Translations under genes and position numbers: made by a program
From: Parascardovia denticolens DSM 10105 = JCM 12538
Lineage (GTDB): Bacteria > Actinomycetota > Actinomycetes > Actinomycetales > Bifidobacteriaceae
Direction: 5' to 3'
Assembly (NCBI RefSeq): GCF_001042675.1
Contig: NZ_AP012333.1
Coordinates: 992,001 to 1,056,000 of the forward strand
DNA: 64,000 nucleotides
Shown: piece after piece, positions 12,625 through 16,929 of the stretch
How positions within the stretch are numbered: the stretch's first letter is position 1
Layout: every line of letters starts with the position of its first letter
Notes under the pieces: generated by a model
Database searches by the model: none
What the model saw: the letters and a program-made list of their open reading frames with translations, nothing else
Told to the model about the DNA's origin: nothing

Positions 12625-13779
12625 TCAGCCCCGTCTACTATGGTTCACATTCCAAGCTCCGTCCAAAAGGCCTCTCGTTGCAGCAGCTTCAATATCATTA
12701 AACCAACTGATTGCTTTTGAACCACGATATCCACAATGTTTCCAATTTGAATCAAAGAGTTTTGGATTATAGCCTTTCCTCACATCTCCTACGGCCTGTG
12801 AGATATCGCCAGCCGTATCCCAACAACTATAAAGTTTTCCATCGCTCGCGACAACAAGACCTGCTCTCTCAAAAGGATCCCCACATGTGCCGCAGTGCAT
12901 GCGCATAAATTTGGTTGATGCATGCAGTTCATTTTCTGCAAGCAATTTATAGATATGGTAAATTTGTCTAATCAATTCTCCTTTTTCCCAATTTGAATCA
13001 TGATAGCTGTCAGTATCATCGATAAGTGCAAGGTTAATCCGAGCATGCTTACCTATCATGGTTCTTGATAAATCAATAATTAATTCATCAATGCTCCTGA
13101 GGTTTTGACTCGTTACATTAATTCTTATATTAAGTTTAATTCCACTGCCAACGACTAGTTTACATGCATTCATCACTTGACGATACGTTCCTCTGCCACT
13201 CCGATTTTTTCGGAATTTATTATGAAAATAAGAATTACCATCAAACGTAATCTGTACTTCATTACAGCCAATTTTATCGAGTATCTGCAGCGAATTGGGA
13301 GATATAAGAGTCCCATTTGTAATAACTGACACAGAACGAATTTGTATAAGAGCTCTCAGCTCCTTTACAAAGTCTCCAATATCATCTAAATACATGAGAG
13401 GTTCACCACCTAATAGAGACAAATCAATTTGTTTCATTCTTGCCCGATTCATTTCAGCAAAAATAAAATTTGCTATCTCTCTCTTATCACATATGTCTTT
13501 TTTGTGAATAGTCAGCTTCCAAATTCCTTTCTGCTCTTTTAAACTTTCGTGCTTTTGGTAACAATATGAGCAGGTGAGGTTACATGCGAACCCCGGATGA
13601 TAGGCAACGGCGAATGCCGAGTCCCATGAGGACGAGGGGAAAACACCGCTTAAAGATGCTAAAGCCTCAGCGAATCGTTCATTGCTGAAAAGCCAAGCCA
13701 GTAAGTTTGGACATATCGCCGACATCGTATTCGTCGCAATAAGAGATGTGTGGCGACCCGTAATAACCGTTAGAGACAT
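12625..13779 (-). CDS. Radical SAM peptide-maturase-like enzyme with C-terminal cysteine cluster
   Basis: A 384-residue radical SAM protein. C66, C70 and C73 form CNLTCSYC, the [4Fe-4S] site that cleaves S-adenosylmethionine, and SLLGGEPLMY (about 121-130) is the SAM-contacting GGE motif. The C-terminal part has C296, C299, C319 and C349, with ASDGKLYSCW like SPASM/Twitch domains. Four cysteines suggest one auxiliary cluster, not two. Such enzymes commonly cross-link or epimerise ribosomal peptides. The gene is AT-rich, unlike its neighbours, and follows a 27-codon gene and an ABC exporter on the same strand, so a role in modifying that peptide is inferred. A modest AGGCGG lies before the ATG at 13779. 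The substrate and chemistry are unknown. Confidence 0.9.
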   Translation of the reverse strand: MSLTVITGRHTSLIATNTMSAICPNLLAWLFSNERFAEALASLSGVFPSSSWDSAFAVAYHPGFACNLTCSYCYQKHESLKEQKGIWKLTIHKKDICDKREIANFIFAEMNRARMKQIDLSLLGGEPLMYLDDIGDFVKELRALIQIRSVSVITNGTLISPNSLQILDKIGCNEVQITFDGNSYFHNKFRKNRSGRGTYRQVMNACKLVVGSGIKLNIRINVTSQNLRSIDELIIDLSRTMIGKHARINLALIDDTDSYHDSNWEKGELIRQIYHIYKLLAENELHASTKFMRMHCGTCGDPFERAGLVVASDGKLYSCWDTAGDISQAVGDVRKGYNPKLFDSNWKHCGYRGSKAISWFNDIEAAATRGLLDGAWNVNHSRRG

Positions 13780-13800
13780 ATAATACCGCCTAAATCGTTA

Positions 13801-13848
13801 TAGATTGTCTGGTGACTAGTTATGCCACGTAGTCACCAGACAATTCTA
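13801..13848 (-). other. Long hairpin between the peptide gene and the radical SAM gene
   Basis: Arms 13801-13818 and 13830-13848 pair over 15 perfect bases (ATTGTCTGGTGACTA), extended to 18-19 with one bulge, around an 11-base loop. No T-run follows on either strand, so it is not a typical terminator. Its place after a candidate precursor gene and before its enzyme fits an mRNA-processing or attenuating hairpin that would keep peptide output above enzyme output. Confidence 0.75.
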
Positions 13849-13879
13849 GGGAAAAGACAAAGCAAAGCAATAATCACTG

Positions 13880-13963
13880 CTACCTATGCCTTGCTCCACA
13901 CTTATCATCCCACCGCATCGGCTTAATCTTGATATTTAGAAGTCCAAGCAATTTTTTAATCAT
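13880..13963 (-). CDS. 27-residue candidate RiPP precursor peptide
   Basis: A short gene missed by length cut-offs. AAAGGAGGTGACTCAA, a near-perfect Shine-Dalgarno sequence, precedes ATG at 13963 by 7 bases. The SD itself is made by the exporter's last Lys-Gly-Gly-Asp codons, and the start overlaps the exporter stop (ATGATTAA), so translation is probably coupled. The product begins MIKKLLGLLNIKIKP, an amphipathic basic leader-like half, and ends MRWDDKCGARHR before TAG at 13880. The second half has one Trp, one Cys, two Asp and a basic tail. There is no Gly-Gly processing site. Position between an exporter and a radical SAM/auxiliary-cluster enzyme suggests a modified peptide; the modification is unknown. 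A chance ORF is the alternative, but the ribosome site argues against it. Confidence 0.7.
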   Translation of the reverse strand: MIKKLLGLLNIKIKPMRWDDKCGARHR

Positions 13964-15818
13964 TTGAGTCACCTCCTTTCAGTTGGTAATTAAAGAGACT
14001 ATTGAAGACTGGACTATGTTGAACAAGTTCGTCATATGTACCGCAATCAACAATCGTCCCAGAGTCAAAAATATAAATCATATCAGCAGCTTTGAGTGTC
14101 CAGGCCCGGTGGGTCACCAGGATGGTCAGCTTGTCTTTCCCTCGTTTCTTCAGTTCGTGGATGATCTCCTCTTCGGCGGCGGAATCGACGTTGCTGGTCG
14201 GTTCGTCGAAAACACGGACCGGGGCGTCCTGGACCAGGCTGCGGGCGATGGCCAGCCGCTGCCATTGTCCGCCTGAAAGATCGGCCCCGTCCCATTGAGC
14301 CCCCAACTGAGTGTCCAATCCGTCCGGCAGAGAGCGAACCAGATCTGCTTCACCGACCGATTCCAAGGAATCCCAGAGAAGCCTTTCCCGATCAGTCCGA
14401 TTTCCGCCGCTGTCTGCCCTCCCTCTTCCTAAAGAGAGGTTTTCCCGAACCGTGAATTCGAAGTGGTTGTAATCCTGAACCATGAAGGACATGATCTCCG
14501 ACTTCTTTTTCGGGCTCAGCTGGGACAGGTCGATTGTTTGGCTGATGGGCTTTCCCCGGCTTTGGCCTGATTTGAAAATCATGGAACCAGCCTGGGGCTT
14601 GACTGCCCCGGACAGGCATTTCAAAAGCGTGGTCTTACCGGCTCCGTTGCGCCCGACGAAAGCGATGAACTCGCCTTTCTTCGCCTTGAGGGACACATCA
14701 TGGACGGCGGAGGCGTCAGCCTGTGGATAGGTGAAGGAAAGACCCGACAGGTCCAGTTCGAAATCGGCCTCCGGCGTCAGAAGCACGCCAGAGGAGAGTT
14801 CAGCGACTCCCTGACCCTTTGTCGCTATCCTTGGTATCGGAGGTTTCTCAGCCACCAACTTCTGCAAGCTGGAAATGGAGATGGAGGCCTGGACCATGTT
14901 GCCCAGCTCGTAGGCGACGCTGGCGGTTGCCTGCATGCCGGAGAGGACCCCCACGACCGACCCGGCTATGAGAGAGGGAGAAGCCCCTTCATAGAGGAGG
15001 GAGATGATGGCAAGGATCAGCAAGGCGCCGGAGACGACGCCGGCGACAAGGTCCGATTCCAAGCCAACCCGCTCGATCCCCTGGCTTAGTTCGCGTTGCC
15101 TGCGGTAGCAGGGCCGGGCCTTGCGGGCGACGAATCCCTGGGCTCCCAGAGTCGCCAGCTCGACGGCTGGACGTTCATAAGTGAGCTGGTTCTCCAGATA
15201 TTCCCCATACCGACGGCTGCGCATGACCTTCGGCCATGTTCTTTGATCGAACTCCGCATAGACCATGGTGCCTATGACCGAGGGGAAAAGGCAGAGGAGG
15301 ACGAGGATTGCGGCGACCCAGCTGGCCCGCCAAATCGTCACCATCAAGCTCAGACAAACGATCACGGAGGTGAAGACGGCGTTGATCGCCGCCACCTGCA
15401 GGGTGATGCTTCCCGAATTGACGGCTTCACGCGCCTGCCGCGCCAGATCGCCTTCCTCCTGGCTCCCGATTTCGTCTGGTCGCCTGCGAGACAAGGCCTC
15501 ATTGATGGAGTTACGGCACCATTCGACCATGGGATTCTGGGTCATCCGCCACAAGTCGGAGACCACATTCCTCAATCCCAAATACCCTGCCACCAGGACC
15601 CCGGTGATGACGGACCAGGTCAGAGCCCGTGGACGACCGGGGAGGGAGAGGGCTTCGGTGAGCTTCCCAACCGATACCGTTTGCAGGCTGGGGACCAGGG
15701 ATGCGACCAGACCCAGAATCAAAGCGGGAAGAACAAAACGCCAAGATGATTTAAATGCGACCCGGACGCACCAGGCGCAGGAGGAAAGAACCGTTCGCAT
15801 TCGCTTCATATATGCCAT
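13956..15818 (-). CDS. ABC exporter with fused membrane and ATPase domains
   Basis: A 620-residue exporter: an N-terminal half with about six membrane segments (first at about residues 25-45), then an ATPase domain. Walker A GRNGAGKTT is near residue 388, signature DLSGGQWQRLAI near 512, Walker B VRVFDEPTSNVD near 535, and the H-loop histidine in VTHRAW near 567. There is no C39 peptidase domain, so it would not cleave a leader itself. It heads the operon with the 27-residue peptide and the radical SAM gene and may export or give immunity to the product. The last ~140 bases, from about 14,096 down, switch from GC-rich to AT-rich, a probable recombination junction. GAAAGGAAGGA precedes the ATG at 15818; an ATG at 15809 is also possible. 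Confidence 0.93.
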   Translation of the reverse strand: MAYMKRMRTVLSSCAWCVRVAFKSSWRFVLPALILGLVASLVPSLQTVSVGKLTEALSLPGRPRALTWSVITGVLVAGYLGLRNVVSDLWRMTQNPMVEWCRNSINEALSRRRPDEIGSQEEGDLARQAREAVNSGSITLQVAAINAVFTSVIVCLSLMVTIWRASWVAAILVLLCLFPSVIGTMVYAEFDQRTWPKVMRSRRYGEYLENQLTYERPAVELATLGAQGFVARKARPCYRRQRELSQGIERVGLESDLVAGVVSGALLILAIISLLYEGASPSLIAGSVVGVLSGMQATASVAYELGNMVQASISISSLQKLVAEKPPIPRIATKGQGVAELSSGVLLTPEADFELDLSGLSFTYPQADASAVHDVSLKAKKGEFIAFVGRNGAGKTTLLKCLSGAVKPQAGSMIFKSGQSRGKPISQTIDLSQLSPKKKSEIMSFMVQDYNHFEFTVRENLSLGRGRADSGGNRTDRERLLWDSLESVGEADLVRSLPDGLDTQLGAQWDGADLSGGQWQRLAIARSLVQDAPVRVFDEPTSNVDSAAEEEIIHELKKRGKDKLTILVTHRAWTLKAADMIYIFDSGTIVDCGTYDELVQHSPVFNSLFNYQLKGGDSND

Positions 15819-15876
15819 TCCTTCCTTTCTTCATGGAGCCACTGTGAAGGCAAGTGAATTTCTGATTCGTATTTCT

Positions 15877-15901
15877 TTTATACATCATGATAGCCCTGAT
15901 G
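15877..15901 (-). promoter_or_regulatory. Possible -10 element and LysR-type dyad before the exporter operon
   Basis: On the minus strand TATAAA (15882-15877) lies about 60 bases before the exporter start. Directly upstream is CATCA-N9-TGATG (15883-15901), an interrupted dyad of the kind LysR-type regulators bind. The neighbouring LysR gene is divergent. No convincing -35 was found. Confidence 0.35.
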
Positions 15902-15990
15902 GAATCTGACACGCCGCAGGGCCGGGGAACAAGCCGCCAGCCTTGCTCATATTCCGAAACCGGAAGGGCTTATCGGACCGAGTCGGGGCC

Positions 15991-15996
15991 TAAACT
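15991..15996 (+). promoter_or_regulatory. -10 element placed for a leaderless lysR mRNA
   Basis: TAAACT ends 6 bases before the lysR ATG at 16003 and no Shine-Dalgarno sequence precedes that ATG. This is the spacing of actinobacterial leaderless transcripts, with the start of transcription at the A of ATG. Confidence 0.5.
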
Positions 15997-16002
15997 CGAT
16001 GT

Positions 16003-16929
16003 ATGACACTCCTGCAGCTTAAATACGTGGTCAAGATCGTGGAATGCGGCTCCATGAACGAAGCGTCCAAAGAGCTCTACATCTCCCAGCCCGCGCTCAG
16101 CTCCGCCATCAAGGAGCTGGAGAAGGAGATGAACATCGAGATCTTCACCCGCTCCCCCCAAGGAATCTCCTTGACCGTGGACGGGCAGGAATTCATCACC
16201 TACGCCCGGCAGATCCTGGACCAGACCGCCCTGCTGGAGAACCGATACAAGCACACCCGTCCTCGCAGACAACTTTGCCAGGTGGCCACCCAGCATTACA
16301 TGTTCGCCGTGGAAGCCTTCGTGGAAATGATCAAGAACATGAACGCCGACGAATACGAGTTCGCCATCCGGGAGATGAGGACCAGGGACATCATCAACTC
16401 CGTGGCCAACATGCAGTCGGAGATCGGCATCATCTATACCTCCGATTTCAACCGGGACGTCATCTCCAAGCTCCTGAGGGAGAAAAGGCTGGTCTTCCAC
16501 CCCCTCTTCCGGGCCAATCTCCATGTCTACCTATCCCGGACCAACCCCTTGGCCTCCAAGGAAAAAGTCACCTTGAAAGACTTGGAGCCCTACCCCTTCC
16601 TCCAATACGACCAGGGGGAGGAAGGCAGCTTCTACTTCTATGAAGAGGCGATTTGGCCGAAATACGCCCGCAAACAAATCAATGTGAGCGACCGCGCGAC
16701 CATCTTCAACTTCATCGTCGGTCTGAACGGGTATACCATCTGCACGGGCATCAACAACGAAGACCTGGATAACGAGAAGATCATCGCCGTCCCCCTCGAT
16801 AGCGACGTGACCATGCTCCTGGGCTGGATCGGTATGAGCCGGACCAACCTGTCCAAGGCCGGGGAAGGCTACCTGGCCCAGTTGAAGCAGGTGGTCCTTT
16901 CCCACGGCCTGTCTTTGGCGGAAGAGTAG
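16003..16929 (+). CDS. LysR-type transcriptional regulator
   Basis: A 308-residue LysR-family regulator. Residues 1-60 are the winged helix-turn-helix (QLKYVVKIVECGSMNEASKELYISQPALSSAIKELE). Residues of about 90-300 form the effector-binding domain. It is divergent from the ABC exporter / peptide / radical SAM operon with a 184-base shared promoter region, the usual geometry for control of the divergent operon; this is inference. It converges on pyrE with only 8 bases between stops. No ribosome site precedes the start, while TAAACT is placed for a leaderless message. The effector cannot be predicted. Confidence 0.93.
   Translation: MTLLQLKYVVKIVECGSMNEASKELYISQPALSSAIKELEKEMNIEIFTRSPQGISLTVDGQEFITYARQILDQTALLENRYKHTRPRRQLCQVATQHYMFAVEAFVEMIKNMNADEYEFAIREMRTRDIINSVANMQSEIGIIYTSDFNRDVISKLLREKRLVFHPLFRANLHVYLSRTNPLASKEKVTLKDLEPYPFLQYDQGEEGSFYFYEEAIWPKYARKQINVSDRATIFNFIVGLNGYTICTGINNEDLDNEKIIAVPLDSDVTMLLGWIGMSRTNLSKAGEGYLAQLKQVVLSHGLSLAEE

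Follow-up and report, generated by a model that had tools for sequence, protein, structure and literature searches.

What product, if any, does a compact three-gene run in Parascardovia denticolens DSM 10105 = JCM 12538 make? The run lies on the minus strand of a stretch of 64,000 nucleotides (NZ_AP012333.1, positions 992,001 to 1,056,000; here called the window) of a genome assembled as one contig of 1,890,857 bases. In reading order it comprises an ATP-binding cassette (ABC) exporter gene (15818-13956), a 27-codon open reading frame (ORF; 13963-13880), a hairpin, and a gene for a radical S-adenosylmethionine (SAM) enzyme (13779-12625). A preliminary description, made from the letters alone, had listed an exporter overlapping a 27-codon gene, a hairpin and a radical SAM enzyme, and had read them as a radical SAM peptide system; each of these parts was recovered at the positions just given. 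Sequence comparison across genera points to a genuine and seemingly unnamed family in which a peptide, encoded with an exporter and a radical SAM enzyme, would be modified by that enzyme. The cassette very probably encodes the precursor, maturase and exporter of a ribosomally synthesized and post-translationally modified peptide (RiPP), a confidence that applies to these roles and not to the bond that would be formed.

The comparison depends on two relatives. The enzyme, used as a single query against genome and viral collections, gave no matches, and the relatives emerged from an exporter scan followed by enzyme profiles. The exporter scan, made with three exporter sequences, collected 80 loci, and scoring the window's peptide against their short frames led to a locus of Rothia sp. 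RSM386 (L027), whose enzyme is 38% identical to that of the window (tblastn, E 6e-63). A profile built from these two enzymes found a third in genome G633 (locus L110; E 2.7e-94). Each of the three loci, from three genera, has a homologous enzyme (34-38% identity), a short peptide gene directly upstream, a hairpin, and one or more exporters in the same run, and the three enzymes form a clade (support 91/95). In Rothia, MVKFMCNLFGIEIVPAGGGRCADHCGGRMPIPGQKPL, with a GAGGAG ribosome site, is followed by a hairpin, the enzyme gene and two exporter genes; in G633 the order is GGAGAGGAGG, then MFRKIAEALGIDVVIRWDDKCPAYRR, a hairpin, the enzyme gene and one exporter gene. The order of peptide, hairpin and radical SAM enzyme is constant in all three, and the position and number of the exporters vary.

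The putative precursors are 26-37 aa long. That of the window, MIKKLLGLLNIKIKPMRWDDKCGARHR (13880..13963, minus strand), shares the six core residues RWDDKC with the G633 peptide, and the Rothia peptide has a related leader and a D-x-C-G-x-R core. None of 20,000 shuffles scored as high as the pairing of the window and G633 peptides, and one of 20,000 as high as the pairing with Rothia. Among the six-frame segments of their own loci, the G633 peptide ranks first of 469 and the Rothia peptide second of 431, the first there being a Trp/Arg-rich frame. From these sequences the window peptide appears to divide into a leader of about residues 1-15 (MIKKLLGLLNIKIKP; pattern [LF]x[IV][KED][IV]) and a core of about RWDDKCGARHR. 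The preliminary description had predicted WDDKC-like short peptides upstream of homologous enzymes, and had named homologues without a conserved short ORF nearby as the observation that would overturn its reading; the predicted peptides are present, no such homologue was seen among the two closest relatives, and the peptide system it had proposed is supported by a conserved short peptide directly before a homologous enzyme, with exporters in the same run.

The peptide gene starts before the exporter gene has ended: its ATG precedes the exporter stop (13958-13956). Ahead of the ATG at good spacing, still within the exporter gene, is the Shine-Dalgarno sequence AAGGAGGTGA (13969..13978, minus strand), which matches the complement of the anti-Shine-Dalgarno sequence in the 16S tail at 10 of 10 positions and so improves on the near-perfect ribosome site described earlier. 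That the ORF might be a chance reading frame is suggested by its short length, yet the perfect Shine-Dalgarno sequence, the conservation at the same position in two further genera and the shuffling result (0/20,000) make this hardly credible, and we set it aside as already contradicted by the comparative evidence.

The hairpin between the peptide and enzyme genes (13804..13844, minus strand; arms 13804-13818 and 13830-13844) is an inverted repeat of 15 perfect pairs; the RNA fold, which allows bulges, has about 18, and the preliminary description had given 18-19 bp. Its fold has an energy of -34.3 kcal/mol (z = -5.0), and no shuffle was as low. Hairpins occupy the corresponding place in the Rothia and G633 loci and also follow the peptide of a fourth locus, G111, described below. 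The window hairpin has no U-run and is absent from the terminator scan list, and on these grounds we rejected an intrinsic terminator. Because it lacks a U-run it is not a classic terminator, and it is probably a messenger RNA-stabilising or partial termination element. Every locus has a strong hairpin after its short ORF, which would also fit a regulatory leader (attenuator) that acts with the hairpin on the radical SAM gene. This seems very improbable to us, since the peptides are conserved in amino acids across genera, RWDDKC included, the gene orders differ, Rfam gives no match, and in G111 the DDKC peptide follows an exporter and has no radical SAM gene after it that could be regulated. 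For a precursor gene, the strong ribosome site together with the hairpin, set against the weaker start of the enzyme gene, would suit many precursor copies per enzyme.

The enzyme (12625..13779, minus strand; 384 aa) matches Pfam Radical_SAM (PF04055) at 2.7e-17, and all its Pfam matches are to general radical SAM and iron-sulfur domains. Its cysteines are arranged as the preliminary description had it, with a CX3CX2C motif (C66, C70 and C73) and four C-terminal cysteines (C296, C299, C319 and C349), and each of the seven is kept in both closest relatives. The motif, the Radical_SAM domain and the short putative precursor gene, which both relatives also have next to the enzyme, are those of radical SAM RiPP systems in the broad sense. 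The SPASM domain is defined by a seven-cysteine motif, CX9-15GX4C-gap-CX2CX5CX3C-gap-C, and the Twitch domain is a shortened SPASM that has a single auxiliary cluster (PMC6231123). Of the SPASM motif the window enzyme has CX14GX4C and lacks the second half, CX2CX5CX3C, only four cysteines following the core. The four invariant late cysteines, with their GX4C element, constitute a single predicted auxiliary-cluster motif, and because there is only one, the auxiliary domain is judged from sequence to be Twitch-like rather than SPASM; of the two domain types considered earlier, it is the Twitch that stands.

All NCBIfam scores of the three enzymes lie far below the respective cut-offs, and no NCBIfam model matches the peptides; neither peptide nor enzyme has a named-family match, in agreement with the earlier remark that the peptide belonged to no recognised family. 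The nearest models for all three enzymes are the maturases CefB (NF038107), TIGR04463 and Clo7bot (TIGR04334), with best scores of 108, 131 and 116 bits against cut-offs of 600, 525 and 600 (78-131 bits against 525-600 overall), and the Cys-rich or Cys-every-fifth precursors for which these models are named do not occur here. The PapB ranthipeptide maturase model (NF047865) is also among the best matches (E 1e-25), at 90.7, 92.8 and 83.7 bits for the three enzymes, that of the window scoring about 91, against a cut-off of 340. Most of the nearest models describe peptide maturases, many of them for Cys-rich or thioether peptides. The best solved-structure match by sequence profile is likewise from a thioether-bond study, the radical SAM protein CteB (PDB 5wgg/5why; 2.4e-14), although CteB, besides binding the leader through an N-terminal domain, has two auxiliary clusters in a SPASM domain (PMC6231123), where the window enzyme has one auxiliary motif. 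The AlphaFold model of the enzyme is weak (mean pLDDT 52, two sequences), and its fold matches confirm the radical SAM barrel only.

What, then, would the enzyme do to the peptide? The 27-residue peptide would serve as precursor, with its N-terminal half as leader and the RWDDKCGARHR tail as core. The enzyme would carry one SAM-binding [4Fe-4S] cluster and one auxiliary cluster of the Twitch type, abstract a hydrogen from a core residue and close a crosslink, proposed to be a thioether from the conserved Cys22 to the Asp at -2 or -3 (D-x-C or DxxC). The Cys and the Asp at -2 are invariant in all four peptides (window, G633, Rothia and G111), and neither the Trp nor the KxxxW string is kept throughout; a Cys-Asp thioether is therefore the most economical proposal. 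We regard a single such thioether in a D-x-C/DxxC core as the most likely product, by sequence and by analogy, while stopping a little short of expecting it. The analogies are with ranthipeptides: the bond in NxxcA is between Cys23 and Asn20, and in freyrasin Cys is linked to Asp as acceptor (PMC8326336). The Cys23-Asn20 spacing of NxxcA equals that of Cys22 and Asp19 in the window peptide, and the NxxcA/NxxcB system of Streptococcus orisratti also has a radical SAM maturase that links Cys to the residue three before it (PMC8326336), a position held by Asp in the window core. The window core, DDKC, has no Asn at -3, so that it falls outside the Asn-x-x-Cys definition: the acceptor here would be Asp rather than Asn, the Rothia member has Ala at -3, and the window enzyme is Twitch-like with four late cysteines and comes from an actinobacterial host. 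PapB, whose freyrasin shares the Cys-Asp chemistry proposed here, uses six Cys-X3-Asp motifs with Cys first, whereas the window core has one Cys after Asp.

The same system might instead form a carbon-carbon crosslink at Trp18, a streptide-like Lys-Trp bond in the K-P-M-R-W stretch of the window peptide. Streptide (KxxxW; StrB, SuiB) likewise pairs a short peptide with a radical SAM enzyme and has a Lys-Trp bond, related short streptococcal peptides exist (PMC8326336), and WDDK is kept in G633. We consider this unlikely: the conserved Lys-x-x-x-Trp that defines the streptide family occurs in the window peptide and is absent from those of G633 (VVIRW) and Rothia, Trp itself is found in the peptides of two of the three enzyme-bearing loci and nowhere in that of Rothia, and all the peptides keep Cys and Asp(-2). 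Among the nearest enzyme models, moreover, maturases of thioether or Cys-rich peptides predominate, the enzyme is not closest to the StrB/SuiB family, and no Rgg-type regulator was noticed beside the window cassette.

The product of the system would be released by the exporter (13956..15818, minus strand; 620 aa), which has fused membrane and ATPase domains by Pfam and NCBIfam and has relatives in both other peptide/radical SAM loci. The preliminary description had assigned it no peptidase domain, and the ABC ATPase domain was indeed matched and no peptidase. Because no peptidase is encoded, the leader would be removed elsewhere or not at all. The released peptide might act as a signal or an antimicrobial, and its export might serve secretion or self-protection.

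Locus G111 raises the question of whether modification is needed. It has an exporter (37% identity), then MILRVKVTQPICGDDKCTQRR, a DDKC peptide, then a strong hairpin, and no enzyme of the three-enzyme clade; its sole radical SAM match is sulfatase-maturase-like and adjoins a sulfatase-like gene. The peptide ORF has no clear ribosome site, and its likeness was equalled in 5 of 20,000 shuffles, a count made before allowing for the choice by eye among six loci. Because the locus was noticed in that way, we give it moderate weight. An exporter with a DDKC peptide and no related enzyme would fit an exported pheromone or bacteriocin that works unmodified, the radical SAM enzyme of the other loci acting on another substrate. 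This appears improbable, since in 3/3 enzyme-bearing loci the peptide gene stands directly before the enzyme gene despite the changes in the exporters, and the G111 ORF lacks that clear ribosome site.

Several points weigh against an enzyme-modified peptide with a Cys-Asp bond. Only three loci carry the enzyme, and the G111 peptide may be exported and used unmodified, or the locus may have decayed. The Rothia and G633 peptides are weakly alike (278/20,000 shuffles as high), and the Rothia link therefore rests on position, leader and D-x-C-G-x-R; its core departs from that of the window (RCADHC against RWDDKC), so one chemistry shared by the three loci is not certain. PapB acts on Cys-Xn-Asp, with Cys first, the opposite of the order in the window core (PMC9413430). 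The N-terminal region of the enzyme is not confidently modelled, which leaves a leader-binding domain there conjectural.

The searches covered one genome per species, in overlapping samples that take in less than half of the actinobacteria; in other phyla, only single sequences or short patterns served as queries. Within this scope, the enzyme was found in none of 150 other Bifidobacteriaceae genomes (151 with its own), and no further members appeared in 396 phylum, 375 class and 245 Micrococcaceae-group genomes, in 35 Rothia-genus genomes or in 47 of the G633 family; plasmid and phage records gave distant radical SAM proteins only. Most exporter relatives have no adjacent D-x-C peptide, so membership of the exporter family is not enough to predict the system. 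More distant matches from the class (L116-L121), with other reading frames upstream, such as EVVAH...WCGVHQE, were set aside. Upstream of the actinobacterial sister enzymes L118-L121 are frames like EVVAH...NVAWCGVHQE (repeated) or DVVAH...PCLWFSGQCA; these resemble a further family of precursors, with cysteines in the core. The P. denticolens genome has a second, AT-rich radical SAM gene (L020:5313-6584; C1:1745312-1746583; 41% GC), which lies between a 237-aa ORF that matches no family, upstream, and an ABC ATPase gene, downstream; its best model is CefB, far below cut-off, and it groups with a Boudabousia gene. In Boudabousia liubingyangii (L026:5935-9822) an exporter related to that of the window is followed by an unassigned 225-aa ORF and a radical SAM gene with 39% GC, for which the precursor would be a different one.

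The cassette also differs from its surroundings in base composition. GC content is 33-49% in the radical SAM gene and 35-45% over the last ~60 exporter codons, compared to 60% for the window, and the peptide gene is AT-rich too; this suggests that peptide, enzyme and a piece of the exporter end were acquired by recombination from a low-GC source. Being rare and AT-rich, the cassette is therefore probably mobile or horizontally acquired. A congener (G001; L017:5995-6600) has retained part of the exporter, 63% identical over 170 residues and missing a large internal segment; the ribosome site survives (AAAGGAGG), with no complete peptide gene behind it. In an Arcanobacterium sp. metagenome-assembled genome (L071:5965-7798), an exporter 42% identical to that of the window (best segment) is broken into two frames and immediately precedes uvrA-uvrC-like genes; the window cassette likewise lies near uvrA-uvrC. 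A divergent LysR-type gene (16003..16929, plus strand; assigned by LysR families), about 185 bp from the exporter start, is a possible regulator of the cassette, and no such gene was seen beside the other loci.

Searches of open-access text found no mention of WDDKC, nor of radical SAM and RiPP together with Parascardovia; subscription papers and preprints lay outside that search, and an earlier description is possible. The system belongs to a known kind, the radical SAM RiPPs, with a peptide motif and layout that appear to be new and unnamed. Tentatively, and as less likely than not, it may represent a RiPP family with an unusually short precursor (26-37 aa), a Twitch enzyme installing a previously undescribed Asp-Cys crosslink (D-x-C or DxxC), a mobile AT-rich cassette shared among actinobacterial genera, and at least one exporter-plus-peptide lineage without enzyme. 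With this finding, an unannotated ORF of 27 codons becomes a natural-product family open to testing, its candidate substrate, enzyme and exporter all defined. Its very small size, with precursors this short and one enzyme, would make it a handy model for peptide crosslinking by a Twitch enzyme with one auxiliary cluster, and it suggests that a member of the Bifidobacteriaceae secretes a modified peptide.

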